The notes beneath the pieces were generated by a model. That model saw nothing but the letters and a program-made list of their open reading frames with translations. It had not been told where the DNA came from and did no database searches. The translations under genes were made by a program, and so were the position numbers. A stretch of DNA of 64,000 bases from Solitalea canadensis DSM 3403 (lineage in GTDB: Bacteria > Bacteroidota > Bacteroidia > Sphingobacteriales > Sphingobacteriaceae): contig NC_017770.1 in the NCBI RefSeq assembly GCF_000242635.2, forward strand, positions 310,001-374,000, in the 5' to 3' direction. The first letter of the stretch is position 1; every line of letters starts with the position of its first letter. Positions 1,028-32,849 of this stretch are shown here, in pieces.

Positions 1028-2287
1028 TTGGACAGAATAATAGAAAAGAAAAAATGGTCGGCCAAAAAGATCATGACGATTGTTGGAGCGACTGCAATTA
1101 TAGCACTGATTGGATTTAGTTATTTCTCCATCAGTGGAAAATCTCGTCTGAATGTTAAAGACGAACAAATAATTATTGGAGAGGTTAAAAAAGGTCCATT
1201 TCAGGAGTTCATTCCAATTAATGGTGTGGTACAGCCTATAACTACCATTTATTTAGATGCAATTGAAGGCGGTCGTGTTGAACAAAAGTTTGTTGAAGAT
1301 GGAGCCATTGTGAAAACTGGTCAGCCTTTATTAAAACTGGCTAACACAGATCTGGAGCTTGACTTGGCTAACCGCGAAACAGCCGTTTATGATCTGATCA
1401 CCAATATGCAAAACACTCGCAACTTATCTGATCAAAACAGTATCCGTCAGTTAAATCAAATGGCTGATGTTGATAATGCAATGGCAGAAGCGGAGCGTAA
1501 ATATAAAATGAACAAAACGCTGTATGAACAAAAGGTGGTTTCGTACCAGGAATTTAAAGCCGCAGAAAACGAATACAACTATCAAACTCGTCGTAAGAAA
1601 CTGACTATTGAAACCTTGAAAAAGGATACCATCGCAAGTAATCAGCAAATAGTTCAGATGAAACAGTCGTTAGTACGTATGCAAAATGCGTTGGAGTTAA
1701 TGCGTCAGAAAGCTGAAGACTTAACAGTTAAATCACCTGTTGATGGTCAATTAACTTCATTGGATGTTGAAATCGGCCAGTCGAAAAACAAAGGCGAACG
1801 TTTAGGTCAGGTTGACGTTTTAAGTGGCTTTAAAGTACGTGCTGATATTGACGAACATTATATTTCTCGTGTATTTACCGGCTTAGATGGCGAATTTATT
1901 TTCAACAATGAAACCTACAAGCTTAAGGTTAAAAAGATCTACTCTCAAGTTTCCAACGGACGCTTTCAGGTAGATATGGAATTTGTGGGTGCAGTTCCTA
2001 AAGGAGTTCGTCGTGGACAAACTTTACAAATCCGTTTGGCTTTAGGTGATGAAACCCAAGCTTTATTACTGCCTAAAGGTGGTTTTTATCAGCAAACCGG
2101 AGGTAACTGGATCTTTAAAGTAAGTGCAGACGGAAAAACAGCTTATAAAGTTGATATTCAGTTGGGTCGTCAAAATCCTGATTACTATGAAGTGCTGGGT
2201 GGATTAAAACCGGGCGACAAAGTAGTGACATCAAGCTATGATAACTACGGAGATATTCAGGAGCTGAATATCGGAAAAGGGAAGTAA
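1028..2287 (+). CDS. HlyD/MacA-type periplasmic adaptor (membrane fusion protein) of an ABC exporter
   Basis: A 419-residue adaptor with a short basic cytoplasmic N-terminus, one membrane helix at about residues 16-34, a split lipoyl/barrel-sandwich domain (VEQKFVEDGAIVKTGQPLLKL and VKSPVDGQLTSLDVEIGQ segments) flanking a long alpha-helical hairpin at about 115-235, then beta-barrel and membrane-proximal domains ending in LKPGDKVVTS. Such proteins link an inner-membrane ABC permease to a TolC channel. The start is a TTG at 1028; the next in-frame ATG, at 1073, would remove the basic residues before the membrane helix, so TTG is preferred. It is the first gene of the cluster, and the ATPase at 2721 is the next intact gene. 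The substrate cannot be read from the sequence. Confidence 0.9.
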   Translation: MDRIIEKKKWSAKKIMTIVGATAIIALIGFSYFSISGKSRLNVKDEQIIIGEVKKGPFQEFIPINGVVQPITTIYLDAIEGGRVEQKFVEDGAIVKTGQPLLKLANTDLELDLANRETAVYDLITNMQNTRNLSDQNSIRQLNQMADVDNAMAEAERKYKMNKTLYEQKVVSYQEFKAAENEYNYQTRRKKLTIETLKKDTIASNQQIVQMKQSLVRMQNALELMRQKAEDLTVKSPVDGQLTSLDVEIGQSKNKGERLGQVDVLSGFKVRADIDEHYISRVFTGLDGEFIFNNETYKLKVKKIYSQVSNGRFQVDMEFVGAVPKGVRRGQTLQIRLALGDETQALLLPKGGFYQQTGGNWIFKVSADGKTAYKVDIQLGRQNPDYYEVLGGLKPGDKVVTSSYDNYGDIQELNIGKGK

Positions 2288-2289
2288 GG

Positions 2290-2341
2290 ACTAGTGATTA
2301 GCAGTTAGTTATTAGCCGTTAGCCATTGAATAACTAACGGC
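2290..2341. repeat. TTAGC-type intergenic repeat (left arm)
   Basis: Short degenerate words of the form TTAGC (GATTAGCAGTTAG, ATTAGCCGTTAGCC) follow the adaptor stop codon. The complementary GCTAA words occur at 2682-2711 just before the ATPase gene, so the two could pair around the intervening pseudogene. Confidence 0.65.
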
Positions 2342-2352
2342 AATATTGAGAG

Positions 2353-2630: not shown

Positions 2631-2681
2631 AGAGTGTAAATAAAGAATAATTAAAAAAACGAAAATAAAAAAAGAACAGCT

Positions 2682-2720: not shown

Positions 2721-3398
2721 ATGATAAAAATATCCAATCTGGAAAAAATCTACAGAACAGAAGATGTTGAAACTGTAGCATTGAATAAAGTATCCTTTGA
2801 TATAAAAGAAGGAGAGTTTGTGGCCATAATGGGACCTTCTGGATGTGGTAAATCCACACTGTTGAATATCCTTGGTTTGTTAGATGACTTAGATGCCGGA
2901 AGTTTTGTTTTTGCAGGACAAGAGGTGGCTAAATACAACGAACGCAAACGTGCTGATTTACGCAAAAAACATATTGGTTTTGTATTCCAGAGCTTCAACC
3001 TGATTGACGAATTAACCGTGTATGAAAATGTGGAATTACCACTGCTTTATTTGAAAGTTGGCACAGAAGAACGTAAAAAACGTGTGGAAGAAGTGTTGGA
3101 AAAGATGCAGATCATGCACCGTAAAAATCACTTTCCTCAGCAATTGTCGGGTGGTCAGCAGCAACGTGTAGCAGTAGCTCGCGCAGTGGTAAACCGTCCT
3201 AAATTAATTCTTGCCGATGAGCCTACAGGTAACCTCGACTCAAGCAACGGTAATGAAGTAATGCAAATGCTTACCGAACTAAACGATGCCGGTACAACCG
3301 TAATTATGGTAACTCACTCAGAGCACGATGCACGCTACAGTCACCGCATTGTACGCATGCTCGACGGACAAGTAGTGCTTGAAAATGTAATGATATAG
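2721..3398 (+). CDS. ABC transporter ATPase, MacB/LolD type (first ATPase of the cluster)
   Basis: A 225-residue stand-alone nucleotide-binding protein of normal length for the family. All motifs are intact: Walker A GPSGCGKS (38-45), Q-loop Gln90 in [14 protein letters not shown], signature [14 protein letters not shown] (142-155), Walker [10 protein letters not shown] (162-170) and the switch His in VTHSEHDA. The FQSFNL and DEPTGNLDS wording is characteristic of ATPases that pair with FtsX/MacB-fold permeases rather than with classical importers. It should energise one or more of the permeases that follow. A strong hairpin at 3510-3535 separates it from the first permease. Confidence 0.95.
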
Positions 3399-3561: not shown

Positions 3562-5919
3562 ATGCTACGTAACTACCTTAAAATAGCATTCAGAAATCTC
3601 TTGAGAAACAAAGGTTTTTCGTTAATCAATATTTCTGGTTTGGCAATAGGAATGGCTAGTGCCGTTTTAATATTGCTTTGGATACAGTATGAGTTTAGTT
3701 ACGATAATTTTAATCAACATAAAGACCGCCTCTACCAGGTATGGAATCGTGGATTTTTTGACGGCAAAGTTCAGTCGTGGAATTCAACTCCAAAGATTCT
3801 GGCTAAAACATTAAAACAAGAATATCCTGATATTGAGGAAGCTTCCCGTGTGGAATTAAGAAGTCCTTTTTTATTGATCGTAGGAGATAAAAAGTTAAGA
3901 ACCCGCGGTGGATTTGTTGATCCCGGATTCTTAAAGATGTTTAGTTTCCCACTTATTAAAGGAAATTCGAAAACAGCATTGGATAATGTGTACTCAATTG
4001 TTATCACTGAAAGTTTGGCAAAGAAACTTTTCGGTGATGAAGATCCAATGGGAAAAACCATTCGCATTGAGAATAAAGATAATTTTATAGTAAGCGGATT
4101 ACTAAAAGACGTCCCCACAAATACCCGTTTCTCCTTTGAATACCTATTGCCCTGGGCTTACATGACTAAAATAGGTTGGGACGATGATTTTTGGGGAAAC
4201 AACTCAACTAATACGTACGTACTTTTAAAAGAACATACTACAGCAGCGTCTGTAGGTGCTAAAATTAAGAATGTTACGATAGCTCATTCAAAAGGGACTG
4301 AGCAAAATGAGTTGTTTCTTCATCCATTATCGAAATGGAGATTATACACCCAATTTGAAGGATCTGTTGCAGGAGGAAGAATAGCTATTGTAAATACTTT
4401 TGGAGTACTAGCTATTTTTATCCTTGTAATTGCGTGTATTAACTTTATGAACCTAAGCACTGCCAGAAGTGAAAAGCGTGCAAAAGAAGTTGGAATTCGT
4501 AAAGTGGTAGGAGCAGAGAAACACACACTGATCAGTCAGTTTTTAGGTGAATCTATCCTTATTTCTTTGTTGGCAGGTATAATAGCATTGTTTATAGTTC
4601 AGTTAGCATTACCTGCATTCAATGCATTTACTCTGCAAAAGATTGAAATTCAATATAGTAATAGTTATTTCTGGATATCGGCTATAGCATTTATCCTTTT
4701 TACAGGCTTACTGGCTGGAAGTTATCCTGCCTTTTACCTTTCTGCATTTCAACCAGTGCGGGTTTTAAAGGGCACATTTAAGGCAGGGCATACTTCCTTT
4801 AGTCCACGAAAAGTGTTGGTGGTTATTCAGTTTACGATTGCCATCATACTGATCATTGCAACCATTTTTGTTAATCGTCAGATTCAGTATTCGCAAGATC
4901 GCGAAACCGGTTACTCAAAAGATAACCTAATCTATCACTTCCTTACAGAAGACCTGGAAAAAAAATATCCGATCATTAAAAGTGAATTGTTAAGCTCAGG
5001 AGTGGCAACTGCTGTTTGTAAAACAAGTGCTCCGATGACACAAGGTTTCAGCAATTCCTGGGGATTCGAATGGCAAGGTAAAGATCCTAAGTCGAAGATC
5101 ATTTTTAACCGCTTTTGTGTGGATGAAGATTTGGCGAAAACGGTGGGTTTAACGATAGTTAAAGGCCGTGATATTAATCTTAAAGATTATCCGACTGATT
5201 CAACAGCTTGCATGATTAATGAATCAGCATTAAAAATAATGGGGTTCAAAGATCCAATTGGTCAAATTATTAAGGATAATAACGTCGATTGGCATGTGGT
5301 AGGTGTGATCAAAGATTTTGTTTTACAATCACCTTTTGAGAATACAGAACCGATGGTCATTGAAGGGGCCAGAGGATGGTTTAATGTAATCCACATTAAA
5401 CTCAATACGCAAAATTCAAATGCTGAAAATTTAAAGATCGCCGAAGAAATCTTTAAAAAGCATAATTACCAGTTTCCGTTTGAGTATCAATTTATTGATG
5501 AAGAATATGCTCAGAAATTCAACGATGTGCAACGAGTGTCAAAATTGATAAGTCTGTTTACAGCATTGATCATCTTTATTTCATGCTTAGGATTATTTGG
5601 TCTGGCAACTTACATGGCAGAAAATAGAATAAAAGAAATCGGAGTTAGAAAAGTTTTGGGAGCCTCAGTATTAAGCATAACAACCTTGTTATCAAAAGAT
5701 TTCTTAAAGTTGATCATTGTGGCAATTGTAATTGCTACACCAATAGCTTATTTCATAGTGAGTAAGTGGCTTCAGAGTATCTCCTATCATGTTTCTGTTC
5801 AATGGTGGGTATTTATCACAGCAGGCTTACTATCCATGTTGATTGCTTTAATAACCATAAGTTATCAAGCAATTAAAGCGGCAACGGCAAATCCGGTGCA
5901 AAGCTTACGATCAGAGTAA
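3562..5919 (+). CDS. MacB/FtsX-type ABC permease, array member 1 of 10
   Basis: A 785-residue inner-membrane permease made of two FtsX halves. Membrane helix 1 is at about residues 19-41, followed by a MacB-type periplasmic core domain (about 45-270). Helices 2-4 lie at about 278-392, with the coupling motif ACINFMNL then EVGIRKVVGA near residues 290-318. Helix 5 is at about 417-440, a second periplasmic domain at 445-660, and helices 6-8 at about 665-772, with EIGVRKVLGAS near 691. The C-terminus is ANPVQSLRSE. Eight helices with duplicated halves mean one chain may suffice for a transporter. In MacB-fold systems such proteins move substrate in the periplasm towards a TolC channel rather than across the membrane. 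I chose the ATG at 3562 because it gives the MLRNY-type start seen in the other members; an upstream TTG at 3460 runs through repeat and hairpin DNA. Confidence 0.93.
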   Translation: MLRNYLKIAFRNLLRNKGFSLINISGLAIGMASAVLILLWIQYEFSYDNFNQHKDRLYQVWNRGFFDGKVQSWNSTPKILAKTLKQEYPDIEEASRVELRSPFLLIVGDKKLRTRGGFVDPGFLKMFSFPLIKGNSKTALDNVYSIVITESLAKKLFGDEDPMGKTIRIENKDNFIVSGLLKDVPTNTRFSFEYLLPWAYMTKIGWDDDFWGNNSTNTYVLLKEHTTAASVGAKIKNVTIAHSKGTEQNELFLHPLSKWRLYTQFEGSVAGGRIAIVNTFGVLAIFILVIACINFMNLSTARSEKRAKEVGIRKVVGAEKHTLISQFLGESILISLLAGIIALFIVQLALPAFNAFTLQKIEIQYSNSYFWISAIAFILFTGLLAGSYPAFYLSAFQPVRVLKGTFKAGHTSFSPRKVLVVIQFTIAIILIIATIFVNRQIQYSQDRETGYSKDNLIYHFLTEDLEKKYPIIKSELLSSGVATAVCKTSAPMTQGFSNSWGFEWQGKDPKSKIIFNRFCVDEDLAKTVGLTIVKGRDINLKDYPTDSTACMINESALKIMGFKDPIGQIIKDNNVDWHVVGVIKDFVLQSPFENTEPMVIEGARGWFNVIHIKLNTQNSNAENLKIAEEIFKKHNYQFPFEYQFIDEEYAQKFNDVQRVSKLISLFTALIIFISCLGLFGLATYMAENRIKEIGVRKVLGASVLSITTLLSKDFLKLIIVAIVIATPIAYFIVSKWLQSISYHVSVQWWVFITAGLLSMLIALITISYQAIKAATANPVQSLRSE

Positions 5920-6039: not shown

Positions 6040-8400
6040 ATGCTATCCAACTATATAAAAATTGCTTTGAGAAATATGTGGCGGAATAAAGGTTTCACCA
6101 TCATAAGTGTATTAGGTCTTGCACTGGGAATGGCCTGTTGCCTTTTCATTTTGTTTTGGGTGCAGGATGAGATATTGCATGATCGTCAGTACGACAATAG
6201 CGACCGGTTGTACCGCGTGATGGAAAACCAGCATTACAGCGGTAATCAGATCTTTACCGTTCAGGCTACTCCGGGATTATTAGCGGAGGCATTAAATAAA
6301 GAAGTTCCGGAAATTGAAAATGCAGTTAATGTTACATGGGGAGGTGATTATGAATTAATCAGGGTAAATGATAAAACTGATAAAGAAAGAGGTTTGTACG
6401 CTGGAGCCAATTTCTTTAAAGTGTTCTCAATTAAGCTTATATCAGGATCGGCAGAAACAGCGCTAACTTCCCCAACTTCAATTGTGATCTCTGAAAAAAT
6501 AGCCAAAAAGTATTTTGGATCAGAAAATCCAATTGGCAAAACAGTTCAGTTTAATGACACATTGAGCTTACAAGTTACAGCTGTTGTAAAAGATGCAGCT
6601 AAGACGTCTTCACTAAAATTTGATTTTATAGCTCCGGTAATAATTTATGAACGTTCAAATACATGGTTAAAACATTGGAGCAATAATGGCATCCGTACTT
6701 TTGTAGTTTTAAAGGAGAACGCGTCTGTAGATAAGGTTCAGGTGAAGATCAAAAACTTCTTGAGAACCAAACAGAAAGACATTACCACTGATCTTTTTTT
6801 ACAGAGTTTCGGAGATTCATACTTGCATGGCCGCTTTGAAAACGGAGTATCAACCGGTGGAAGAATCGAGTATGTACGCTTGTTCTCAGTGGTAGCTGTA
6901 TTTATTTTATTGATCGCTTGCATAAACTTCATGAATTTGGCAACTGCGCGTTCTGCCAGAAGAGCAAAAGAAGTAGGGATTCGTAAGGTTGTTGGAGCCC
7001 CACGTCAGTTTTTGATCGGGCAGTTTATGGGCGAAGCTATCATGATCTCTCTCGTTTCTATTCTGTTGTCTCTTGGTGTCGTTCAATTGCTGTTGCCGGT
7101 TTTTAATTCTGTAACAGGAAAAGAGATCGTAATTGAATATACTAATCTTTTATTCTGGGTGTATTTAGTTGGTTTAGCTATTCTAACGGGAGTTTTATCC
7201 GGAAGCTATCCTGCATTATTTCTTTCATCATTAAAACCTGTTGTGGTTTTAAAAGGGGTGCTGAAATTCGATTCAAAATCAATCATCTTCCGGAAAGGCC
7301 TGGTCGTATTTCAGTTCTGCCTGTCTATTCTTTTAATTGTAGGAACTATAGTTGTTTATCGTCAGGTCAATTTCATCAAAAGCAAAAACCTCGGGTTTAA
7401 TAAAGAAAATCTAATTCTGTTAACTCTCGATGGTGATCTTAGGAAAAATTACGAAGTTTTTAAGCAGGATATATTACAAACATCATCAATAAAAGCAGTT
7501 ACCCAAAGCACTACTAATCCAATTGAAATTGGAAATAACACTGAAGATGTAACATGGCCTGGTAAACAAAGTGATGAGAAAATATTGTTCACCAATCTTT
7601 TTATAGGCCATGATTTTGTTAAAACAATGGGTGTAACAATTAAAGAAGGGCGGGATTTTTCTTCCGCTCGAGTTTCCGATACTGCAGGTTTTATTATTAA
7701 TGAAGAGACCGTTCGCCGCATGAAACTTACAAAAAATGCAGTGGGCACTGTCATAACCATGTGGGATATAAAAGGGCCAATTATAGGTGTTGTAAAAGAC
7801 TTTCACATTAATTCATTGCATTCAGCTATTGAACCGTTGATTATGGTTTTACGCCCTGAGTGGGGCAAAGTAGCGTTGGTCCGCACTGAAGCCGGAAAAA
7901 CACAGGAAGCCATTGCTGCTTTATCAACCGCATTTAAAAAGTACAATCCTAAATATCCATTTAAATACGAGTTTGAAGATGAAAACTACCGTCAGTTGTA
8001 TAAAAATGAAATGATGGTTGGACAGTTAGCTAATTACTTCGCTGTTCTGGGAATCTTCATCTCTTGTTTGGGCTTGTTTGGTTTAGCCATGTTTATTGCA
8101 GAACAGCGCACTAAGGAAATTGGAGTGCGCAAAGTGTTGGGAGCATCAGTGACCAATATTGTAGGAATGCTTTCAAAAGATTTCTTAAAACTGGTAATGA
8201 TCGCTGCAATAATTGCATTCCCGTTAGCTTGGTTTGCCATGAATAAATGGCTGCAAAACTTTGCTTATCGGGTAGAATTAAGCTGGTGGATCTTTTTGAT
8301 TGCCGGTTTTACTGCAATGTTGATCGCATTAATTACAGTAAGCTTTCAGGCAATTAAAGCAGCTGTTGCTAATCCGGTTAAAAGTTTAAGAAATCAATAG
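6040..8400 (+). CDS. MacB/FtsX-type ABC permease, array member 2 of 10
   Basis: 786 residues beginning MLSNYIKIALRNMWRNKGF. The first helix lies at about 20-42. The first periplasmic domain carries the MacB-core wording FFKVFSIKL and SIVISEKIAKKYFG. The first coupling segment ACINFMNLATARSARRAKEVGIRKVVGA starts near residue 292, split here as ACINFMNL plus EVGIRKVVGA. The second, GLFGLAMFIAEQRTKEIG, starts near 677. It ends ANPVKSLRNQ, the only member ending in NQ instead of a final Glu. No truncation or frameshift is seen. Spacing to neighbours is 120 bp upstream and 121 bp downstream, both filled with inverted-repeat DNA. Confidence 0.93.
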   Translation: MLSNYIKIALRNMWRNKGFTIISVLGLALGMACCLFILFWVQDEILHDRQYDNSDRLYRVMENQHYSGNQIFTVQATPGLLAEALNKEVPEIENAVNVTWGGDYELIRVNDKTDKERGLYAGANFFKVFSIKLISGSAETALTSPTSIVISEKIAKKYFGSENPIGKTVQFNDTLSLQVTAVVKDAAKTSSLKFDFIAPVIIYERSNTWLKHWSNNGIRTFVVLKENASVDKVQVKIKNFLRTKQKDITTDLFLQSFGDSYLHGRFENGVSTGGRIEYVRLFSVVAVFILLIACINFMNLATARSARRAKEVGIRKVVGAPRQFLIGQFMGEAIMISLVSILLSLGVVQLLLPVFNSVTGKEIVIEYTNLLFWVYLVGLAILTGVLSGSYPALFLSSLKPVVVLKGVLKFDSKSIIFRKGLVVFQFCLSILLIVGTIVVYRQVNFIKSKNLGFNKENLILLTLDGDLRKNYEVFKQDILQTSSIKAVTQSTTNPIEIGNNTEDVTWPGKQSDEKILFTNLFIGHDFVKTMGVTIKEGRDFSSARVSDTAGFIINEETVRRMKLTKNAVGTVITMWDIKGPIIGVVKDFHINSLHSAIEPLIMVLRPEWGKVALVRTEAGKTQEAIAALSTAFKKYNPKYPFKYEFEDENYRQLYKNEMMVGQLANYFAVLGIFISCLGLFGLAMFIAEQRTKEIGVRKVLGASVTNIVGMLSKDFLKLVMIAAIIAFPLAWFAMNKWLQNFAYRVELSWWIFLIAGFTAMLIALITVSFQAIKAAVANPVKSLRNQ

Positions 8401-10939: not shown

Positions 10940-11027
10940 AGCAGCTGTTGGCAATTAGCCTTTAGCAGGCTAAACTAAAAAACAGATGAGCGTTAAAAGC
11001 CAATAGCTAAACACTAAGAGCTAAAAA
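10940..11027. repeat. TTAGC/GCTAA inverted-repeat spacer 3-4
   Basis: GTTGGCAATTAGCC, TTTAGC and CAGGCTAAAC lie after the stop. GCCAATAGCTAAACAC and AAGAGCTAAAA come just before the next ATG. Confidence 0.6.
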
Positions 11028-11028
11028 T

Positions 11029-18579: not shown

Positions 18580-18691
18580 GTAGAGACAAGACATGTCTTG
18601 TCTTTATGCATCTAGAGACAAGACATGTCTTGTCACCACCATAAAAAAATAAAAACATGTTACGCAACTACTTTAAAATAGCGCTGAGAAA
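18511..18691 (+). repeat. 181-bp junction repeat, copy 2 (end of member 6 to start of member 7)
   Basis: Near-identical to 15992-16172. Both copies have the same 3' gene end (SLKTE codons), the AGACATGTCT spacer palindromes, the CATAAAAAAATAAAAAC leader and the same first 34 bases of the next gene. Confidence 0.8.
18581..18636. repeat. Palindromic spacer repeat 6-7
   Basis: Two units built on GACAAGACATGTCTTGTC, at about 18585-18602 and 18617-18634. They are the same family as the spacer between members 5 and 6 but have diverged in the flanking bases. Confidence 0.75.
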
Positions 18692-21083: not shown

Positions 21084-21575
21084 ATGAAAACAACACTATT
21101 GAGCTTTAAGATTGCAATTATCTTCATTGCCTGTTTTGTGGAAAGGAGTAATGCACAGACTATATCAAAGCCATATAAGCCGGCTTCTCAAGAGCTTTTT
21201 AATGAAATTGCTCATATGGATAGCGTAATGTTTAACGCTTTTAATGCACATAATTTAGAGGCACTTAAAACAACTTTTTCAACTGATTTAGAATTCTATC
21301 ATGATAAAGGCGGATTAGCAGGTTATGATCAAACAATGGAAAATTTTAAATCCTTGTTCGAAAAAAATAAAGACACTGGCTTAAGAAGAGACCTTGTAAA
21401 AGGAAGTCTAGAGGTGTATCCCATCAATAATTATGGAGCTGTAGAAGTCTGCAGTCATAAGTTTTGCCATGTAGAAAACGGTAAAGATGATTGTGGTGTA
21501 TTCAAAAACATTATGATCTGGCAAAAGAAAGACGGACAATGGAAAGTTACCCGCGTAATCAGCTACGACCATTAA
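21084..21575 (+). CDS. Exported NTF2-like (DUF4440-type) protein inside the permease array
   Basis: 163 residues with an N-terminal signal peptide (hydrophobic residues about 7-19, cleavage expected after SNAQ, near 25). The rest fits the NTF2/SnoaL alpha-beta cone fold: HMDSVMFNAFNAHNLEALKTTF (first helix, positions about 44-65), DLEFYHD, a central segment ending in NYGAVEVCSHKF, and a final strand DGQWKVTRVISYDH. Members act as small-molecule-binding or enzyme scaffolds, and no catalytic residues can be assigned here. It lies 24 bp after member 7 and 70 bp before member 8, so it is probably co-transcribed. A periplasmic substrate-binding or chaperone role for the exporter is possible but not shown. 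Confidence 0.85.
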   Translation: MKTTLLSFKIAIIFIACFVERSNAQTISKPYKPASQELFNEIAHMDSVMFNAFNAHNLEALKTTFSTDLEFYHDKGGLAGYDQTMENFKSLFEKNKDTGLRRDLVKGSLEVYPINNYGAVEVCSHKFCHVENGKDDCGVFKNIMIWQKKDGQWKVTRVISYDH

Positions 21576-24125: not shown

Positions 24126-26540
24126 ATGTTAAAGAACTATATCACCATCGCTTTTCGAAATCTTTTTAGGCATAAAGCATATTCCGCCATAAATATTGCC
24201 GGTTTGGCTATAGGTATAGCAGCCTGTTTGCTTATTCTTCAGTACGTAGCTTTTGAATTAAGTTATGATGACTTTCATGTTAAAAATGAACGTATTTACC
24301 GGATTAAACAAGACAGGTATAATAAAGGACAGCTAAGTACCGAATGGGCGGCTGGTCCTTTTGCGGCAGCCAATTCATTTAAAGAAGCCTTTCCGGAGAT
24401 TGAGGATTATGTAAAATTGGTTCGTGCCGAACAACAGGTTGTGGATAAAGGAGGGGAGCCTTATAAAATCGAAAAGGTTTACTATGCATCAGGCTCTTTC
24501 TTTAAAGTATTTTCATTTCCGCTGCTTGCAGGTGATCCGAAAACAGTTTTAGCTGAGCCGCATTCAATGGCTATCTCCGAAACACAAGCAAAGGCATTAT
24601 TTGGTTCTGCGAATCCGATAGGGAAAACGCTGAATTTAAATAATAAAGAAGCATTTAAAATTACCGGTGTATTTAAGGATATCCCCAACAACTCGCATCT
24701 TAAAACAGATGTTCTCTTGTCTTACGCAACATTCCTGACTTATTTTAAAGATGGTAGTCCGGAAACCGCATGGCAATGGGACGGTTGTTTGTCGTATTTA
24801 TTGTTACGTCAGGGGACAGACCCTCTAAAATTACAGTCGAAGTTTCCTTCAGTGGTAGATAAACTGGCAGGAGCGGAACATAAACAATACAATAGCTCCG
24901 CAACGTACACTTTGCAGCCCTTAAAAGATATTCACCTTTATTCACACTATATGATGGAGGCAGAAGCTAACGGCGATGGTAAAACTGTCTACCTCTTATT
25001 AGGTATTGCCTTTTTTATTGTGGTTATAGCCTGGGTTAATTATATAAACCTGGCAACAGCAAGAGCGGTAACCCGTGCCAAAGAAGTAGGGATCCGTAAA
25101 GTTGTAGGATCTGAACGTAAACAGTTGGTCTTCCAGTTTTTGTTAGAGTCTGCTTTGTTGAATATCATGGCGGTTGTTATTGCCATTTTATTGATGATTG
25201 CGATTATTCCTTTGTTTAATCAATTATCCGGACAGCATCTTACATTAACCTTGTTCACAAAAGGTTATTTCTGGCTAACATTCATCAGCCTGCTTCTTTT
25301 AGGAATTTTATTTTCCGGTATTTATCCGGCATTTGTCTTATCAGGTTTTAAGCCGATAAAAGTGTTGAAAGGAAAAATAACTTCAACTGCAGAAGGAGCT
25401 TTTTTACGTAAATCATTGGTGGTGTTCCAGTTTGCTATTTCATTATTCTTGCTAATCGGGACATTTACCGTTTTTAATCAGATACAGTACATGCGTAAGC
25501 AGGCATTGGGCTTAACAATCGATCAGACATTGGTTGTAAATGGTCCTTTAGTTCGAAATGATTCTACGTTTAAAAACCAGATGGAATCATTTAAACAGGA
25601 ATTATTGCAAAATACTAGTATTAAGGGTGTTGCTGCCTCAACTACTGTTCCGGGACAACCTGTTAATTGGAATGCCGGAGGTATCCGTTTGATTGGGCAG
25701 GGTGAAGGAGAGGGAAAACAATACCGGGTTATTGGTGTCGACTACGGTTTCATGGATGTTTATGGATTAAAATTAATTGCTGGTCGAACTTTTTCTAAAG
25801 ATCATGGTACTGATCCTAAAGCTGTTATTTTTAATAAAAAAGCGATTGAACAGTTAGGCTTTACCAAACCGCAGGAAGCTATTGGTAAGCAAATTGAGTT
25901 TTGGGGCGAAACCTATACGGTTGTTGGTGTTACAGAGAACTTCCATCAACAATCGTTGCGTGAAGCCTATGAACCACTTATCATTCGGTTAATCCCTGAG
26001 TCAAGAGATTACTTCTCTATACGTATAAATTCCGATCAGGCTGCAAGTTCTATTACTTTAGTAAAAGCAAAATGGGACCGGTTTTTTCCGGGTAATACAT
26101 TCGAACATTTTTTCCTCGACCAACATTTCAATGATCAGTATAAGGCCGATCAGCGTTTTGGTCATGTATTTACATTTTTCTCACTGCTGGCAATTTTGGT
26201 AGCCTGTTTAGGTCTGTTTGGCTTAGCGTCATTTACCACTATTCAGCGAACAAAGGAAATTGGAATTCGCAAGGTACTTGGAGCTTCCGTAATAGGGATA
26301 TTGAGATTATTGTATAAGGAATTTGCTTATCTGTTAATCATCTCATTTATAATTTCAATACCAGTTGCATGGTATGCCTCTAATGAATGGTTGCAAAGCT
26401 ATGCGTTCAGAGTTGATATCCATTGGTCATACTTTGCATTTCCTTTTATAATTGTGTTATTAATCGCACTGTTAACGGTAAGTTACCAGTCATTAAAAGC
26501 AGCATTAAGTAATCCCGTAAATAGTTTAAGAACCGAGTAG
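24126..26540 (+). CDS. MacB/FtsX-type ABC permease, array member 9 of 10
   Basis: 804 residues. Helix 1 is at about 19-42 (AIGIAACLLILQYV). It departs from the family wording at the first coupling motif: IAWVNYINLATARAVTRAKE near 301, with Trp for Cys and Val for Ile in the usual ACIN. The second motif reads ACLGLFGLASFTTIQRTKEIG, near 694, without the usual Ile-Ser before Cys. It ends SNPVNSLRTE, with Ser replacing the Ala of ANPV. The frame is complete and the periplasmic domains keep the MacB-core wording FFKVFSFPL and SMAISETQAKALFG. Confidence 0.93.
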   Translation: MLKNYITIAFRNLFRHKAYSAINIAGLAIGIAACLLILQYVAFELSYDDFHVKNERIYRIKQDRYNKGQLSTEWAAGPFAAANSFKEAFPEIEDYVKLVRAEQQVVDKGGEPYKIEKVYYASGSFFKVFSFPLLAGDPKTVLAEPHSMAISETQAKALFGSANPIGKTLNLNNKEAFKITGVFKDIPNNSHLKTDVLLSYATFLTYFKDGSPETAWQWDGCLSYLLLRQGTDPLKLQSKFPSVVDKLAGAEHKQYNSSATYTLQPLKDIHLYSHYMMEAEANGDGKTVYLLLGIAFFIVVIAWVNYINLATARAVTRAKEVGIRKVVGSERKQLVFQFLLESALLNIMAVVIAILLMIAIIPLFNQLSGQHLTLTLFTKGYFWLTFISLLLLGILFSGIYPAFVLSGFKPIKVLKGKITSTAEGAFLRKSLVVFQFAISLFLLIGTFTVFNQIQYMRKQALGLTIDQTLVVNGPLVRNDSTFKNQMESFKQELLQNTSIKGVAASTTVPGQPVNWNAGGIRLIGQGEGEGKQYRVIGVDYGFMDVYGLKLIAGRTFSKDHGTDPKAVIFNKKAIEQLGFTKPQEAIGKQIEFWGETYTVVGVTENFHQQSLREAYEPLIIRLIPESRDYFSIRINSDQAASSITLVKAKWDRFFPGNTFEHFFLDQHFNDQYKADQRFGHVFTFFSLLAILVACLGLFGLASFTTIQRTKEIGIRKVLGASVIGILRLLYKEFAYLLIISFIISIPVAWYASNEWLQSYAFRVDIHWSYFAFPFIIVLLIALLTVSYQSLKAALSNPVNSLRTE

Positions 26541-26632
26541 ATACAAGCCACTGGCTTGTATCCAAAACAGCCATTGGATTGTATCCCAAACGATAATTGG
26601 TTAGTATTTAAAGCGGTCATTGGTTAGTATTT
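26541..26632 (+). repeat. Four degenerate 23-bp tandem repeats before member 10
   Basis: Units lie at 26541-26563, 26564-26586, 26587-26609 and 26610-26632, each exactly 23 bases. A shared core of the form CATTGG-TT-GTAT is strongest in units 2 to 4. Unit 1 is itself a palindrome (ATACAAGCCA, then TGGCTTGTAT). Units 3 and 4 are most alike. Confidence 0.7.
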
Positions 26633-26649: not shown

Positions 26650-29079
26650 ATGTTAAAGAATTATATAAGAATCGCTTTCAGAAACCTTAACAGGTACAGG
26701 TTTATATCCTTCATTAATCTATTCGGATTAACAGTAGGTTTAGCCTGTTGTTTATTAATTCTGAATTATATTGTTAATGAATTAAGCTACGACAAGTATA
26801 ATTCGGAGGCAGATAATATATACCGTGTAACAAGGAGTTTCAATACGCCCGATGGTGTAGATGTATTGCATTTAAGTGCCGTTGCACCTCCCTTTGCAGG
26901 ATTGCTGAAAAATGATTTTCCGGATATAAAGGAAGTTACCAGTGTACTCAGTAATGGAAATCTGGCTGTAAAGTATGAAGAAAAACTATTCAACGAGCAA
27001 AATGCCTTTTTTGCAGATGATAAGTTCTTCCAGTTTTTTCCTGTTGCGGTGGTACGAGGAAATGCTCAGAAAGCTTTAACAGAGCCTTATTCAGTAATGC
27101 TAACCGAAAAATTAGCGACGAAATACTTCGGCAATGAAGACCCGATGAACAAAATGATTAAGATTGATAACCTTCCTAATCAGTTTAAAGTTACCGGAGT
27201 CTATAAAGAGTTACCTACTAATTCGCACATGCATCCGGAATTGCTTTTGTCGTTTAAAACGCTAAAAGATCCGGTTGTTTATGGAGAGCAGAATCTGAAA
27301 ACAAACTGGGGTAATAATGCATTTCACACCTATTTGTTATTCCCTAAAAATTATCCTGTCGAAAAAATAGCCAATCAGTTTCCTGCATTCCTGGATAAGC
27401 ATGTTCATTTTTCTGGAGAGCCAGCCGATGCAAAAGCTTCAAAGGGTACAAAACTGTTTTTACAGAAGCTGACCGATATTCACCTGCACTCGCATCTGGC
27501 AGATGAGTTAGAAGAAAGCGGAGATATCAAAAGGGTCTATATTTTTACAGCAATTGGATTATTTATCCTGCTGATCGCTTGCATCAACTATATGAATTTG
27601 TCGACAGCAAGATCGATAGCCAGGGCGAAAGAGATAGGAGTCAGAAAAGCAATAGGAGCACAACGCAAAGAACTGATCATACAGTTTCTTACAGAATCAG
27701 TACTGATAACAATTATTTCGCTCGTGTTGGCGGTAATCGCTACCAGTGTGCTTCTGCCATTTATTAACAAACTTGCCGGACAAGAATCAAATAGTCTGAT
27801 TTTGTTGAATTGGAAGTTTATTGTTCCCTTGCTGGTGTTACCTGTATTTATTGGTTTAATGAGTGGAATTTATCCAGCTCTGTTCATGTCATCTTTTGAT
27901 CCAGTTAAGGTACTCAAAGGCGTAGGCAAGATAGGTACAAGGGGAATTTCATTCAGACAGGTTTTGGTGGTAGTACAATTCTCTATTTCAATCATCCTGA
28001 TTGTATCGACCATTGTAGTGTTCCAGCAATTAAAATATTTGCAGAGCACTTCATTGGGTTTTAATAAAGAGCATATTCTTACCATGCGTTACAACTTTGG
28101 TAATAATTATGACTCTTTCAGAAATGAGTTGCTGCGTTCCTCTACTATTGTTGATGCTGGACGATCTTCAAGAATTCCTTCGGGACGATTGTTGGATGAA
28201 ATGGATACGAAAGTATTTGAAAAAGAGCAGGAACAGCCTGTAAAAATAAGTTTAAAAGTTGTTGCGGTTGATTACGATTTTATTCCTACTTATGGAATAG
28301 GTGTAGTGGCAGGAAGGAACTTTTCACGTGAGCATTCCACCGATACAACTAATTTTATGTTGAATGAAACAGCAGTTAGCAAGCTGGGTTGGGGAGCGCC
28401 ACAAAATGCAATCGGCAAGGATATTATGTATGGTGGAGTAAGAGGTAAAGTAATTGGAGTGGCTAAAGATTTTCACTTTGAATCAATGCATGAAAAAATC
28501 GTTCCATTGATTATGAGCCTGCCTCCTGAACGTATTAACGCTTATGGACGACTTTCAGTTAAAATAAAAGGAAATAATATCCAGGCGGCAATTGCAGAAG
28601 TTGAAACCAAATGGCATAAATATCTACCTGAAACACCGTTTGAGTACACTTTCTTAAATGAACGATTCGACCGCTTGTATAAATCGGAGCAACAGCAAGG
28701 AAAAGTATTTACCATTTTTGCTTGTATTGCAGTGTTTATTGCCTGTTTAGGTTTATTCGGGCTTTCGGCATTTGCCATTTCACAACGTATAAAAGAAATC
28801 GGAATTCGTAAAGTGCTGGGAGCAAGTATTCCTGAGATCGTTAAAGTTTTATCGGTCGATTTTCTGAAATTGGTGATAATAGCAGCAGTCATAGCATTTC
28901 CGGTTGCATGGTACGTAATGCATCAATGGTTACAAGATTTTGCCTATCGCGTTTCAATTCAGTGGTGGGTATTGGCAATTTCAGGAATTGCAGCTATTTT
29001 GATTGCATTAATTACCATTAGTTTTCAATCGATAAAAGCAGCAATGGCCAATCCGGTAAAAAGCCTGCGGTCAGAATAG
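26650..29079 (+). CDS. MacB/FtsX-type ABC permease, array member 10 of 10
   Basis: 809 residues from the ATG at 26650. A TTG at 26620 would add ten residues encoded by the tandem repeat and is rejected, because the ATG gives the standard MLKNYIRIAFRNL start. Helix 1 is at about 19-42 (LTVGLACCLLILNYI). The first coupling motif ACINYMNLSTARSIARAKEIG is near 309, with RKAIGAQRKE after it. The second, GLFGLSAFAISQRIKEIG, is near 699. It ends ANPVKSLRSE. It is followed after 126 bp by the second ATPase, the most direct candidate partner. Confidence 0.93.
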   Translation: MLKNYIRIAFRNLNRYRFISFINLFGLTVGLACCLLILNYIVNELSYDKYNSEADNIYRVTRSFNTPDGVDVLHLSAVAPPFAGLLKNDFPDIKEVTSVLSNGNLAVKYEEKLFNEQNAFFADDKFFQFFPVAVVRGNAQKALTEPYSVMLTEKLATKYFGNEDPMNKMIKIDNLPNQFKVTGVYKELPTNSHMHPELLLSFKTLKDPVVYGEQNLKTNWGNNAFHTYLLFPKNYPVEKIANQFPAFLDKHVHFSGEPADAKASKGTKLFLQKLTDIHLHSHLADELEESGDIKRVYIFTAIGLFILLIACINYMNLSTARSIARAKEIGVRKAIGAQRKELIIQFLTESVLITIISLVLAVIATSVLLPFINKLAGQESNSLILLNWKFIVPLLVLPVFIGLMSGIYPALFMSSFDPVKVLKGVGKIGTRGISFRQVLVVVQFSISIILIVSTIVVFQQLKYLQSTSLGFNKEHILTMRYNFGNNYDSFRNELLRSSTIVDAGRSSRIPSGRLLDEMDTKVFEKEQEQPVKISLKVVAVDYDFIPTYGIGVVAGRNFSREHSTDTTNFMLNETAVSKLGWGAPQNAIGKDIMYGGVRGKVIGVAKDFHFESMHEKIVPLIMSLPPERINAYGRLSVKIKGNNIQAAIAEVETKWHKYLPETPFEYTFLNERFDRLYKSEQQQGKVFTIFACIAVFIACLGLFGLSAFAISQRIKEIGIRKVLGASIPEIVKVLSVDFLKLVIIAAVIAFPVAWYVMHQWLQDFAYRVSIQWWVLAISGIAAILIALITISFQSIKAAMANPVKSLRSE

Positions 29080-29205: not shown

Positions 29206-29868
29206 ATGTTAAAGTTAAAAGATATTTCAAAGTGGTATGCTAACGGATCGTCAAAAGCGCACATATTACGTCATCTTGATTTAGAGATTAAAGAAGGAGA
29301 ATTTGTTTCGATCATGGGGCCTTCCGGTTCAGGTAAATCAACCTTGCTGCACATTTTGGGAATGATAGATGATCCTTCAGAAGGGGAATACTTTTTTGAT
29401 GAAGAGCCAGTACATAACATACGCGAAAAACAACGTTCAGAATTATATAAAAAACACATAGGTTTTGTGTTTCAAGCATATCACCTGATCGACGAACTTA
29501 CGGTTTATGAAAATATTGAAACGCCGTTGTTGTATCATAAGGTGAGCTCAGGGGAACGAAAAGCGATGGTAGCAGATATCCTCGATCGCTTTCAGATAGT
29601 GGGTAAAAAAGACCTTTTCCCGGATCAGCTATCAGGAGGGCAGCAACAATTAGTAGGTATTGCAAGAGCAGTGATAACCAAACCTAAATTGATTTTAGCA
29701 GATGAACCAACCGGTAACTTAAATTCAAAGCAAGGCGAAGAAATTATGGATCTGTTTACACGTTTAAATAAAGAAGATGGAGTTACCATAGTACAAGTAA
29801 CCCACTCCGAAAAAAACGCGTCATATGGGTCGAGAATAATTAATTTGCTGGACGGAAAAGTAATCTAA
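29206..29868 (+). CDS. ABC transporter ATPase, MacB/LolD type (second ATPase of the cluster)
   Basis: 220 residues, co-linear with the ATPase at 2721: Walker A GPSGSGKS (38-45), Gln90 in GFVFQAYHLIDELT, signature LSGGQQQ (142-148), Walker [10 protein letters not shown] (162-170) and the switch His in VTHSEKNA. Two positions are unusual. The signature continues LVGIARA, where the first ATPase and most relatives have RVAVARA, and DEPTGNLNS replaces the usual DEPTGNLDS. These lie next to the catalytic elements and may alter hydrolysis or partner choice, though the essential residues remain. It lies between permease 10 and the tolC-like gene, so it may serve the last permease, the whole array, or both. 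Confidence 0.93.
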   Translation: MLKLKDISKWYANGSSKAHILRHLDLEIKEGEFVSIMGPSGSGKSTLLHILGMIDDPSEGEYFFDEEPVHNIREKQRSELYKKHIGFVFQAYHLIDELTVYENIETPLLYHKVSSGERKAMVADILDRFQIVGKKDLFPDQLSGGQQQLVGIARAVITKPKLILADEPTGNLNSKQGEEIMDLFTRLNKEDGVTIVQVTHSEKNASYGSRIINLLDGKVI

Positions 29869-30032: not shown

Positions 30033-31457
30033 TTGAAAAAGTCAATTTTCCTTTTTATAACATCAGGCATTTTGTTGTTTAATGAAGCCAGAGCCCAAGA
30101 AAAATTTACACTTGAACAGTGTGTGAATTACGCTATGGAACATAATTTAACAATAAAGCAAGCTCGGTTTAGTCAGGCCATAACCGAGAAAGATTATTCT
30201 CAAACAAAATATTCTTTGCTACCTGAAATTAATGGTCAGATTTCTCAGAATTTTAATAAAGGTAGAACAACTGACCCGCAAACAGGTTTGATTGTGGATC
30301 AAAATATCAATACTTCAAATTTTGGAGTTGGAGCCAGCTGGGTATTATTTTCTGGTCTGCAAAAAGTAAATACCATTAAACAAATAAAATACAGTTTAAT
30401 GGCAGAACAAAGTAATGTAGAGAAGGTAAGACAAGATGTTTCTTTGAATGTAGTATCTTCTTTTCTTAGTTCACTGTTCAACAAAGAACAAGTTATTAAT
30501 CTTACAAATCAGCTACAGGTGAGTAATGAACAATTAAGTATTGCTCAAAAGAAAGCAGATGTAGGATCGATAACTGAAGCAGATTTTTTGCAGTTCAAGG
30601 CTCAGGTTTCCACTGATGAAACAAACTTAACAACAGCACAAAATCAGCTTGAAATTTCTATGTTAGAATTAAGGCAGCTTTTGAATATTGATCCTCAACG
30701 TACTTTTGATATTGAGCCTCCGACAGATATTAGCTTATTAGGTAATATCAAAACAGATTATAACGCAACGGATGTTTATAATGAAGCTTTAAAAATTAAT
30801 CCTACTATTAAGTATGCGAATTATCAAAAACTATCTTATGAAAAATCGTTGCAAGTAACCAGAGGTAAATATTATCCTACTTTATCGATGGCGTATAACA
30901 TAAACACGCTTTATGGTAATAACTATGAGCAACTGTTAAGTTCTACCCCAGGTGGATTAGCTCCAACTTCATTTGTGACACAATCAGGCGAAGCTGTATT
31001 TGCTCAAACGGTAGATCGTGAGTTTGGAACTACTCCGTTTAAAGACCAGTTTAAAAATAACAGGGGTAGCATGTTATCCTTTACCTTGCAAATTCCTATA
31101 TTCAATGGGTTGCAGGTTAGAAACAGTACAAGCAAAGCAAAAATAAGCTATCAGAATGCCATTGCAACAGAAGAGCTAACTAAAAATACTTTAAATAAAA
31201 CCATAGCTCAGGCAGTAGCAGACTTAAGGGCAGCTGAAAAGAAAAATGTTTCTGCTCAAAGCTCTTATGAGTCACTTAAAAAAGCTTATGAATACAGTCA
31301 AAAAAGATTTGACGTGGGACTGATCAATAGCTTAGATTTGAATATTGCTAAAACCAATTATAGTAAAGCGGAGTCTGAGGCTTTACAAGCAAAATATGAT
31401 ATGATCTTTAAAAGTAAGGTGATTGATTACTATTTAGGGAAGCCGCTAACATTATAA
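30033..31457 (+). CDS. TolC-family outer-membrane efflux channel
   Basis: 474 residues with a signal peptide (hydrophobic stretch about 4-15, cleavage expected after EARAQ, near 22). Two long outer-membrane efflux repeats follow: the first from FTLEQCVNYAMEHNLTIKQA (residues about 25-44), the second from about residue 240. Both are rich in coiled-coil Ala, Gln and Asn, as in the TolC periplasmic tunnel. The conserved C-terminal VGLINSLDLNIAKTNYSKAE segment (about 427-446) is present. The start is TTG at 30033, since no in-frame ATG precedes the signal peptide. It sits 33 bp before a MacA-type adaptor and should form the outer-membrane exit of the exporter. The 163-bp gap upstream has an imperfect stem at 29941-29964 without a T run. 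Confidence 0.92.
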   Translation: MKKSIFLFITSGILLFNEARAQEKFTLEQCVNYAMEHNLTIKQARFSQAITEKDYSQTKYSLLPEINGQISQNFNKGRTTDPQTGLIVDQNINTSNFGVGASWVLFSGLQKVNTIKQIKYSLMAEQSNVEKVRQDVSLNVVSSFLSSLFNKEQVINLTNQLQVSNEQLSIAQKKADVGSITEADFLQFKAQVSTDETNLTTAQNQLEISMLELRQLLNIDPQRTFDIEPPTDISLLGNIKTDYNATDVYNEALKINPTIKYANYQKLSYEKSLQVTRGKYYPTLSMAYNINTLYGNNYEQLLSSTPGGLAPTSFVTQSGEAVFAQTVDREFGTTPFKDQFKNNRGSMLSFTLQIPIFNGLQVRNSTSKAKISYQNAIATEELTKNTLNKTIAQAVADLRAAEKKNVSAQSSYESLKKAYEYSQKRFDVGLINSLDLNIAKTNYSKAESEALQAKYDMIFKSKVIDYYLGKPLTL

Positions 31458-31490
31458 AATTACTATTGAACAGCATAAATAGAAACTTAA

Positions 31491-32849
31491 ATGAAGAAGA
31501 AGAATAAAACGCTATGGTACTTATTAGGTGGTGTAGCTTTATTAGTAATAGTTGCATTTGTTGGCAAGAAGCAAGGCTGGATAGGAGGACAAAAAGAAAC
31601 GGAAGTTTCTGTTGAGGCCACAGCTCGTCGTAGCATCATTGAAATGGTTTCGGCCAGCGGTAAAATTCAACCTGAAGTAGAGGTAAAATTAAGCCCTGAG
31701 GTTTCAGGTGAGTTAGTTGAGATCTATGTTAAGGAAGGCGACAGAGTAAAAAAAGGACAGCTTTTATGTAAAATCCGTCCTGATTTCTATGCTTCAGATT
31801 ATAGTCGTTCAGAAGCAATGGTGAATGAAGTAAAAGCAAACTTAGCAAACAGTCAGGCTCAGTTAGCATCGTCAGAAGCAACTTTTAAAAATGCTGAAGC
31901 ATCATTCAAAAGAAATCAACAACTATTTAAAGAAAAAGTAATCTCTCAATCGGAGTACGATGCTGCTTTGGCTCAATACGAGCAAGCCAGAGAAAGTGTA
32001 TCTGCTGCAAAGCAAAGTGTACAAGCGTCTAAATACAGTGTAGCTTCTAACCAGGCTTCATTGCAACAGTCGGGCGTTAACCTTGCTAAAACAACGATTT
32101 ACTCGCCAATTGATGGTATTGTATCGTTGTTAAGCGTTAAAAAAGGTGAGCGTGTTTTAGGTACAGCGCAAATGCAAGGTACAGAGATCATGCGTATAGC
32201 CGACTTAAAAAGCATGGAAGCTGTTGTTGACGTAAACGAAAACGATATTAACCGTATTTCACTTAATGATACAGCAGACGTTGAAGTAGATGCATTCCTT
32301 GGTAAAAAATTCAAAGGCTATGTAACTTCAATTGCAAATTCAGCAACTTCAGCAAGTGCAACCGCAACAACCGATCAGGTTACAAACTTCCAGGTAAAAG
32401 TTCACCTTATTCCTTCTTCGTATGAAGCTGCAATAAAAGAAGGTCAGGAATCTCCTTTCCGTCCGGGTTTGTCGGCTACAGTTGACGTGCATACTAATAA
32501 AGTGAATAAAGTGATTGCTGTTCCTATTCAGGCAGTAACCACTCGCGAACCTGAAAAAGATAAAGCTGAAAAAGACGGTAAGAAAGAGAATAAAGACGAT
32601 AAAAAGAAAACAGATAAATCAGAGCCTGTAAAATCAATCGTATTCGTAATGCGTAACGGAGTTGCTCAAGCAGTAGCTGTTACAACCGGTATACAAGATG
32701 ATTCATTCATCGAAATTAAATCAGGTTTAAAAGATGGAGATCAGGTAATTGTAGCTCCTTACTTAGCAATTTCTAAGAATCTTAAAGACGGTGATAAGGT
32801 GAAAAAAGTAGATCAAGAGAAACTTTTTTCTGCCGAAAAGAAAAAATAG
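31491..32849 (+). CDS. MacA/HlyD-type periplasmic adaptor, second in the cluster
   Basis: 452 residues. It has one N-terminal membrane helix (about 7-24), a lipoyl half-motif at about 74-98 (VSGELVEIYVKEGDRVKKGQ), and an Ala/Ser/Gln-rich alpha-hairpin at about 105-200. The second lipoyl half is TIYSPIDGIVSLLSVKKGER; beta-barrel and membrane-proximal domains follow. A strongly charged Lys/Glu/Asp insertion (about residues 356-382, EPEKDKAEKDGKKENKDDK and on) interrupts the membrane-proximal domain, probably as a flexible loop. It is the partner expected to join a MacB-type permease to the TolC-type channel just upstream. A hairpin terminator follows its stop, marking the likely end of the cluster. 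Confidence 0.92.
   Translation: MKKKNKTLWYLLGGVALLVIVAFVGKKQGWIGGQKETEVSVEATARRSIIEMVSASGKIQPEVEVKLSPEVSGELVEIYVKEGDRVKKGQLLCKIRPDFYASDYSRSEAMVNEVKANLANSQAQLASSEATFKNAEASFKRNQQLFKEKVISQSEYDAALAQYEQARESVSAAKQSVQASKYSVASNQASLQQSGVNLAKTTIYSPIDGIVSLLSVKKGERVLGTAQMQGTEIMRIADLKSMEAVVDVNENDINRISLNDTADVEVDAFLGKKFKGYVTSIANSATSASATATTDQVTNFQVKVHLIPSSYEAAIKEGQESPFRPGLSATVDVHTNKVNKVIAVPIQAVTTREPEKDKAEKDGKKENKDDKKKTDKSEPVKSIVFVMRNGVAQAVAVTTGIQDDSFIEIKSGLKDGDQVIVAPYLAISKNLKDGDKVKKVDQEKLFSAEKKK

Follow-up and report, generated by a model that had tools for sequence, protein, structure and literature searches.

What drives ten permease genes that stand in a single row, and what does the length of such a row signify? 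The question is raised by a 64,000-nucleotide stretch of the genome of Solitalea canadensis DSM 3403 (NC_017770.1, positions 310,001 to 374,000; the whole stretch is referred to below as the window), in which ten intact open reading frames (ORFs) for double permeases occupy positions 3562-29079 of the + strand. A first-pass annotation of this DNA, made from its letters, proposed a modular exporter with shared ATPases and many permeases. The comparative analysis reported here identifies the row as one case of a widespread regulated module that combines a variable number of permeases with a fixed, unequal pair of ATPases. It also makes it probable that one regulated ATPase pair, together with an adaptor, drives an exchangeable repertoire of permeases, as an envelope machine switched through sigma-54.

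In the window, the module consists of the genes listed here, of which permeases p2 to p5, p7 and p9 were assigned by profile match and alignment and the two ATPases by profile and motif comparison.

1-710, - strand: sigma-54-dependent response regulator (receiver, AAA+ sigma-54 interaction domain, Fis-type helix-turn-helix), cut by the window edge
1028-2287, + strand: adaptor 1 (HlyD/RND-MFP type), identified by profile matches and co-occurring with double permeases
2721-3398, + strand: ATPase 1, with canonical motifs
3562-5919, + strand: permease p1, a conserved core lineage with relatives 49-61% identical in other genera
6040-8400, + strand: permease p2
8522-10939, + strand: permease p3
11029-13422, + strand: permease p4
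13616-16060, + strand: permease p5
16138-18579, + strand: permease p6, between junction repeats, with no ortholog seen in the arrays of congeners
18657-21059, + strand: permease p7
21646-24030, + strand: permease p8, 62% identical to p7
24126-26540, + strand: permease p9
26650-29079, + strand: permease p10, whose TTG-extended ORF begins at 26620
29206-29868, + strand: ATPase 2, with the D-loop Asp and the post-signature Arg replaced

The initial description of ten complete permeases on one strand, each with two FtsX halves, holds throughout: all ORFs are intact, and a domain search of the genome found two MacB_PCD and two FtsX domains in every array permease, giving 20 matches per family within the array. 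This 5.2 Mb genome, assembled as one contig, contains 26 FtsX domains, and the six outside the array sit singly in frames of 305-443 amino acids, so that all double permeases found by the search are members of the array. The start of p10 is probably the ATG at 26650, and the TTG start codon of adaptor 1 is backed by orthologs beginning with MDR.

Is this arrangement peculiar to one strain? Across 27 annotated stretches from 25 genomes, the host genome included, the same order recurs: a kinase and a regulator in divergent orientation, adaptor 1, ATPase 1, permeases, ATPase 2 and, often, a TolC. Twelve genomes have the two ATPases on a single stretch, with the following counts of full permeases between them: 10 (the window), 6, 6, 4, 9, 21, 21, 6, 7, 4, 4 and 0. 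These 98 permeases all share the coding strand of ATPase 1, as does ATPase 2 in 11 of the 12 genomes. Conservation of gene count in relatives had been proposed as a check; the partners are indeed conserved, and the permease number is not constant, ranging from 0 to 21. Such a range between the same two ATPases suggests a pump with a cassette-like, exchangeable substrate-handling part. Other genomes (G009, G014, G015 and G027) have a split row, with permeases at separate places. G009, a single contig from another genus, encodes ATPase 1 and ATPase 2 without a permease between them and has its permeases at other places in the genome, as expected if ATPases and permeases work in trans. Between the two ATPases of G009, where permeases would be expected, there is an open frame of 3265 amino acids (L081:69-9866). 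In G026 (L047:1039-9984), the row spreads both ways, with three permeases and the regulator divergent ahead of adaptor 1.

A broader view was obtained from named loci, the best 80 of at least 550 matching stretches, which we take to represent Sphingobacteriaceae, Chitinophagaceae, Flavobacteriaceae and other families; denominators count the loci with enough flank. A divergent regulator lies within four ORFs before the adaptor in 71/80, ATPase 1 follows in 73/75 with enough downstream DNA, and at least one full permease is present in 69/69. In seven loci, ATPase 2 is near enough to be seen and closes a row of two or three permeases. Of the 8 loci in which ATPase 2 is visible, 6 have a TolC gene next to it, and 9/80 loci have one at most three ORFs before adaptor 1.

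The partners also occur together at the level of whole genomes. Strong double-permease matches to the ADOP profile are present in 24 of 60 relatives, the host genome included (weakest best E 1e-88); the best match in the remaining 36 has E 4e-49. Adaptor 1 (E<1e-90) was detected in 23 of the 24 double-permease genomes and in none of the 36 others (best 8e-19; Fisher 1e-15), with thresholds for orthologs chosen after a gap had been seen in the score lists. ATPase 1 gives the same figures, 23/24 and 0/36, as does ATPase 2 at full length; in G026, ATPase 2 is a fragment where a contig stops. Apart from a second ATPase 1 match in G004 and G013, a genome has a single close ortholog of each ATPase, and the 19 double-permease genomes that were counted hold between 13 and 80 FtsX domains, the maximum being in G014. 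The proposal of shared ATPases serving many permeases thus gains from the comparison: the partners are conserved, each is present as a single close ortholog, and they are found where the permeases are. In a phylum sample of 247 genomes, taken to be the same set for both searches, the permease (E<=1e-60) was found in 78, the adaptor in 71 and both in 65. The second relatives of ATPase 1 (G004:C34:94169-94828 and G013:C2:575639-576298) adjoin other permease matches and perhaps belong to a sister system.

How unequal are the two ATPases? ATPase 1 carries LSGGQQQR and GNLDS in 22/22 sequences from fetched genomes and 76/76 from named loci, five sequences being in both sets. In ATPase 2, the post-signature Arg is replaced by Leu or Ile and the D-loop Asp by Asn, Gln or His in 13/13 and 8/8 sequences, sets without overlap, so that the D-loop aspartate is missing from 21/21. 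Walker A and the Walker B glutamate (DEP) are kept in both ATPases in all sequences, and the switch His is kept in all but two named-locus ATPase 2 sequences, where a simple pattern missed it. Between the window and congeners, ATPase 1 is 96%, ATPase 2 89-92% and adaptor 1 90% identical. Because two unequal ATPases adjoin permeases with two unequal halves, these sequence motifs suggest that ATPase 1 and ATPase 2 form a heterodimer. Alternatively, there could be two separate motors, each an ATPase homodimer, one serving efflux permeases with the adaptor and the other serving different permeases or acting in regulation. By its motifs, each ATPase could hydrolyse ATP alone, ATPase 2 lies on the opposite strand in G024, and G015 holds ATPase 2 without ATPase 1. 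We nevertheless consider two motors unlikely, given that the ATPases are found together in 23 of 24 double-permease genomes and none of 36 others, and that the two replaced residues of ATPase 2 hold in 21 sequences, as expected of a specialised partner.

If one ATPase pair serves all permeases, what do the permeases share? An alignment of 176 full permeases, which come from fetched stretches of 18 genomes rather than from their full sets and from which 14 fragments shorter than 740 amino acids were left out, shows eight helices by averaged hydropathy and two periplasmic domains, with conservation peaking around two coupling loops and at the ends. In a second alignment of 105 permeases (the ten of the window and 95 of 770-830 amino acids, each whole in one fetched piece), 11 columns are invariant, among them Glu692, Arg696, Lys697, Gly700 and Asn777 (p1 numbering). 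The coupling residues Glu692, Arg696 and Lys697 are thus identical in 105/105, and one or two of the 11 columns fall inside the periplasmic domains. Few parts of the permeases are as conserved as the loops that face the ATPase, which lends further support to shared ATPases.

A structure model of p1 (predicted local distance difference test score, pLDDT, 90.3; predicted template modeling score, pTM, 0.86) has two four-helix units joined directly, eight helices in all. Foldseek places YbbP at the top and also matches MacB and relatives and LolE, and by profile comparison the closest sequences are MacB and a Porphyromonas domain. The four-helix unit, the large periplasmic domain between helices 1 and 2 and the FtsX C-terminal region are those of the Type VII (MacB-fold) class. 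This fold, common to YbbP, LolE and BceB, also allows a reading in which the permeases are not exporters and would extract or reposition lipids or lipoproteins, or sense mechanically, as in LolCDE, YbbAP and BceAB. With it agree the top rank of YbbP and the kinase and regulator that adjoin the unit, BceAB being described in PMC12646458 as working with a kinase. Against it stand two marks of a tripartite pump, the HlyD-type adaptor that is a constant partner and the TolC genes before adaptor 1 or beside ATPase 2 in the named loci, and we regard a role other than export as possible, though on the unlikely side.

Where does the unit end? The first-pass annotation had also placed a TolC-type channel and a second adaptor after the row, and both genes are there:

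30033-31457, + strand: TolC-type channel, resident neighbour; a 59% identical TolC is kept in the module-less Solitalea G002
31491-32849, + strand: adaptor 2 (MacA-like), resident neighbour; 81% identical in G002

G002, of the same genus, provides a natural empty site. It keeps the left neighbour of the module (deacetylase-like by eye) and, on the right, TolC, adaptor 2, a glycerol-3-phosphate dehydrogenase and a helicase; between these neighbours, the kinase, the regulator, adaptor 1, both ATPases and the permeases are all missing, and a search of the G002 genome found no ortholog of adaptor 1, ATPase 1 or ATPase 2. Since every part is missing and the neighbours are kept, the unit occurs in Solitalea either entire or not at all, and since TolC and adaptor 2 remain, they are resident neighbours outside it. 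The earlier grouping of two adaptors and TolC into one system therefore fails, and the empty site rules out adaptor 2 and TolC as obligate parts. Either loss in G002 or gain in the others may have produced the difference. TolC and adaptor 2 also follow ATPase 2 in G009, at 42 and 47% identity, and because of this same order their neighbourhood may be old; the channel at 30033-31457 may still serve the permease system.

At the other end, the regulator and the adjacent kinase, which the first-pass annotation had overlooked, are part of the unit. The regulator gene is completed in L009 (11274-12710), and the histidine kinase, with PAS and HATPase domains, comes next at 9932-11284, just beyond the window. 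The sigma-54 interaction domain of the regulator (PF00158, E 5e-63) is that of the NtrC type. Two short elements lie between regulator and adaptor 1:

887-902, no strand: palindrome TGTTCGCATGCGAACA, a candidate regulator-binding site, present as the sole exact copy in the genome
987-1003, + strand: sigma-54 -24/-12-like promoter TTGGCACGTTTTTGAAG, scoring 9/13, with an imperfect -12 part

The palindrome recurs at the equivalent place in two congeners, exact in G003 and with one mismatch in G001, and is not found at that place in the module-less G002. GTTCG-N4-CGAAC occurs in 7 of 79 named-locus upstream regions (one region shorter than 80 nucleotides was dropped) against 0.25 expected from shuffles. 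The -24/-12-like site before adaptor 1, TTGGCACG, scores 9/13 with an imperfect -12 part in the window, and sites of at least 9/13 precede the adaptor in 53/80 named loci versus 9.4 expected from shuffles; both kinds of shuffles preserved base composition only. A loose sigma-54 pattern run over the window alone gave a chance number, 48 sites versus 47 expected, and the signal emerged only when the upstream regions of relatives were compared. The Bacteroidota-type promoter pattern had 5 matches against 3.6 expected, none within permease spacers, and sigma-70-like and terminator-like counts in the array were at chance level, so that no internal promoter or stop is proposed.

Have the permeases diverged to handle different substrates? 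It had been noticed early that p7 and p8 differ mainly in the periplasm, and the figures agree (membrane parts 74%, periplasmic parts 54% identical). Orthologous permeases of the window genome and congeners are 52-76% identical, with a ratio of periplasmic to membrane divergence of 0.92-0.97 for p1 and 1.49-2.11 for p2, p3, p4, p5 and p8. Single FtsX permeases in the same genome comparison, used as controls, give 0.92-1.84. The control is not a clean one: other single-permease pairs gave ratios of 0.96-3.56, and array pairs of the two congeners 0.90-1.79. Because single permeases give similar ratios, the periplasmic divergence is ordinary for this fold, and the array permeases evolve fast as whole proteins with no special periplasmic excess. 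The periplasmic acceleration expected in the first-pass annotation was accordingly not borne out by the split into membrane and periplasmic parts, and it is rejected as a special sign, being inseparable from the controls.

If the periplasmic domains carry no special signature, might the row have grown by recent duplication? Within the window, 44 of the 45 permease pairs are 31-45% identical, the exception being p7 and p8. Copies from the same genome are hardly closer than copies from others, with identities of 47 and 46% in the membrane parts and 26 and 26% in the periplasmic parts, and the nearest relative lies in the same genome for 14 to 16 of 176 permeases, the chance level in permutations that shuffled labels and ignored kinship. 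The permease lineages would therefore be old and kept, and p1 is conserved between genera. By these sequence comparisons, the permeases are old divergent lineages and not recent duplicates, p7 and p8 excepted; for the rest, the nearest-relative and permutation tests and the pair identities rule out recent tandem duplication. A still-duplicating dosage array, an alternative considered from the start, is thus conceivable for the 62% identical neighbours p7 and p8 and otherwise contradicted by the 44 distant pairs and the chance-rate nearest relatives; as an explanation of the whole row we find it barely credible. Redundancy, or neutral birth and death, in which permeases come and go by duplication and loss but do not specialise in function, fits the wide variation in permease number among relatives, the existence of remnants (14 fragments beside 176 full genes, and a 130-amino-acid p8 remnant in G001) and a periplasmic divergence that does not exceed the controls. 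Still, the age and retention of lineages hardly closer within a genome than between genomes, and the conservation of p1 between genera, make it quite improbable. The p8 remnant (L040:11023-11415) stands where G003 has an intact p8, a permease being lost.

How, then, can rows differ so much in length? The shared permease order in Solitalea is p1, p2, p3, p4, p5, p8, to which entire genes are added or from which they are absent, and p6, for which the compared set holds distant relatives only, is framed in the window by a repeat.

15990-16232, + strand: junction repeat copy A (end of p5, 77-nucleotide spacer, start of p6), 88% identical to copy B over 245 columns
18509-18751, + strand: junction repeat copy B (end of p6, 77-nucleotide spacer, start of p7), the pair of copy A

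The two spacers (16060-16137 and 18579-18656) are built of doubled palindromes, and the 20-base palindrome core, allowing at most one mismatch, has four copies in the genome, all flanking p6, and none in three congeners. More generally, for 40 of 176 permeases the closest relative of transmembrane helices 7-8 comes from the same genome, versus 14 expected (0/1000 permutations), with the other regions at chance. Same-genome DNA tracts at the 3' ends are 80-88% identical, mostly in G026 and G027, and similar spacers join 93 of 518 same-genome pairs (45 in G026) versus 51 of 6268 pairs between genomes. The junctions alone are homogenised within genomes. G026, G014 and G016 give strong evidence of this, the window little except around p6; within-genome promoters or repeats could account for part of the likeness. 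TAGCNRT-like heptamer repeats crowd several spacers of the array, with 20 of the 21 window matches in 2299-29137; the whole-genome counts are 82 in S. canadensis (G000), 20 in G001, 1 in G002 and 3 in G003.

A few other genes stand inside arrays. In the window, a DUF4440 gene (21084-21575), with an N-terminus that looks signal-like by eye and no evident partner role, separates p7 from p8. The arrays of G004, G026 and G034 (L054:4029-5090, L048:6785-7822 and L058:2855-3934) contain a secreted-looking protein, 345-359 amino acids long and 53-57% identical among copies, that is a possible real partner; two of the three were scanned, that of L054 matching DUF4097 and the second having no match in Pfam. 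The extra genes have no common function, those scanned being, besides DUF4440 and the secreted protein, unrelated enzymes. Rfam at the gathering threshold and a tRNA scan gave no match in the window.

Taken together, a unit that recurs across Bacteroidota (kinase, regulator, adaptor 1, ATPase 1, a variable row of double permeases, ATPase 2) could work as follows. The regulator would bind the palindrome and fire the sigma-54 site; a single ATPase 1-ATPase 2 heterodimer would fit any double permease with its two dissimilar halves; a tripartite channel would be completed by adaptor 1 together with a TolC; and each permease would have a substrate of its own, periplasmic or membrane-borne, on which it acts by MacB-type mechanotransmission. 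Rows would lengthen and shorten by recombination between homogenised junctions, which would add or remove whole permease genes. In its fullest form, we propose a modular transporter whose fixed heterodimeric ATPase, adaptor and channel accept up to some 30-36 permeases per genome (an estimate from the 80 FtsX domains of G014), encoded in cis or in trans and swapped at the junctions, under a sigma-54 switch; for this combination taken whole, we would put the chances somewhat short of even.

Several observations weigh against the shared motor and its exchangeable permeases. Besides the opposite strand of ATPase 2 in G024, searches of G015, which has many permeases and ATPase 2, turned up orthologs of neither adaptor 1 nor ATPase 1, and the second ATPase 1 matches elsewhere in G004 and G013, 56-58% identical, are near paralogs. 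The phylum sample contains 13 genomes with the permease and no adaptor (E 9e-76 or weaker) and 6 with the reverse. Strict patterns for the coupling-loop motifs fit only 142/176 and 144/176 permeases, and the periplasmic domains diverge no faster than in single permeases. At the junctions, long homogenised spacers in the window are confined to the surroundings of p6, and the excess of synonymous identity is modest, the last 14 codons giving 0.54 in the window versus 0.37 expected, and 0.41 between genomes.

Motor sharing among several permeases is known for some ABC importers. If the shared motor is real here, the bacterium would renew its cassette repertoire of permeases around an unchanged motor, and the ATPases missing from dispersed double permeases of Bacteroidota would be accounted for in the same way; loss of two small ATPase genes is predicted to silence all permeases. 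Junction recombination offers a concrete mechanism for array turnover. Bacteroidota genomes can hold such double permeases by the tens: PMC11573002 reports 28 and 33 copies in two Dyadobacter genomes, labelled as of unknown function. Linking such permeases to one conserved ATPase pair, an adaptor and a regulator makes a large family of paralogs that had lacked an explanation open to experiment.

Which known system does the module resemble most? We found in the open-access literature neither a description of the permease array itself nor an exporter-type system with this permease-to-ATPase ratio and a consistently unequal ATPase pair; PMC10434189 lists iron-responsive ABC permease genes of Bacteroides, which could not be tied to this system. 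Like MacAB-TolC, a Type VII ABC efflux pump, the array has the MacB-type fold with periplasmic core and FtsX domains, a separate HlyD-type adaptor and a TolC-type channel gene nearby, the latter two known here from adjacent genes. In MacAB-TolC, the ATPase domain is fused N-terminally to the permease. The array, in contrast, has two unequal and separate ATPase genes, and its permeases begin directly with the membrane part, with no ATPase domain fused at the N-terminus; it further differs in that each chain combines two permease units, one ATPase pair goes with many permeases, and control is by a sigma-54 two-component system.

The ADOP family (NCBIfam TIGR03434) matches both halves of all ten permeases (E 1e-79 to 3e-104, p10 in two stretches), but their scores of 268.6-349.6 bits are below the family cut-off of 622.3 bits and thus outside the family as defined. 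ADOP permeases are called orphan, having no ATPase nearby, whereas two dedicated ATPases bracket the row. The ADOP cut-off is exceeded in one of 247 Bacteroidota genomes. That draft genome, G289, has three such matches on contigs C35, C40 and C42 (787-840 bits), by contamination or transfer.

The darobactin exporter DarB/DarC/DarD (NF038008, NF038010, NF038007) likewise has a separate ATPase, an adaptor and a double permease, and its set provides the best NCBIfam model for both ATPases and adaptor 1. The cut-offs are not reached: the permeases score 92-176 against 700, the ATPases 302 and 243 against 375 and the adaptor 169 against 450. The darobactin exporter has one permease, and its neighbours are a darobactin-type precursor and a radical SAM enzyme, neither of which was seen among the scanned proteins, a part of the region's genes, with no dedicated search made.

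YbbAP and BceAB share with the array two permease units per chain and a separate ATPase, YbbP being the closest solved fold. Permeases of the YbbP/BceB type have two linking helices between the units (PMC5985334) and 10 helices in total (PMC12646458), unlike the p1 model, whose eight helices form halves joined directly, without linking helices. The putative permease domain of Porphyromonas gingivalis, 3is6, is 26-27% identical, with a template modeling score (TM-score) of 0.74-0.80 by target length and a profile E of 1e-28; unlike the array permeases, it is an isolated domain, and its title names no system. The array module is thus a member of the MacB-fold class that is distinct from ADOP, DarBCD and YbbP as these are defined.

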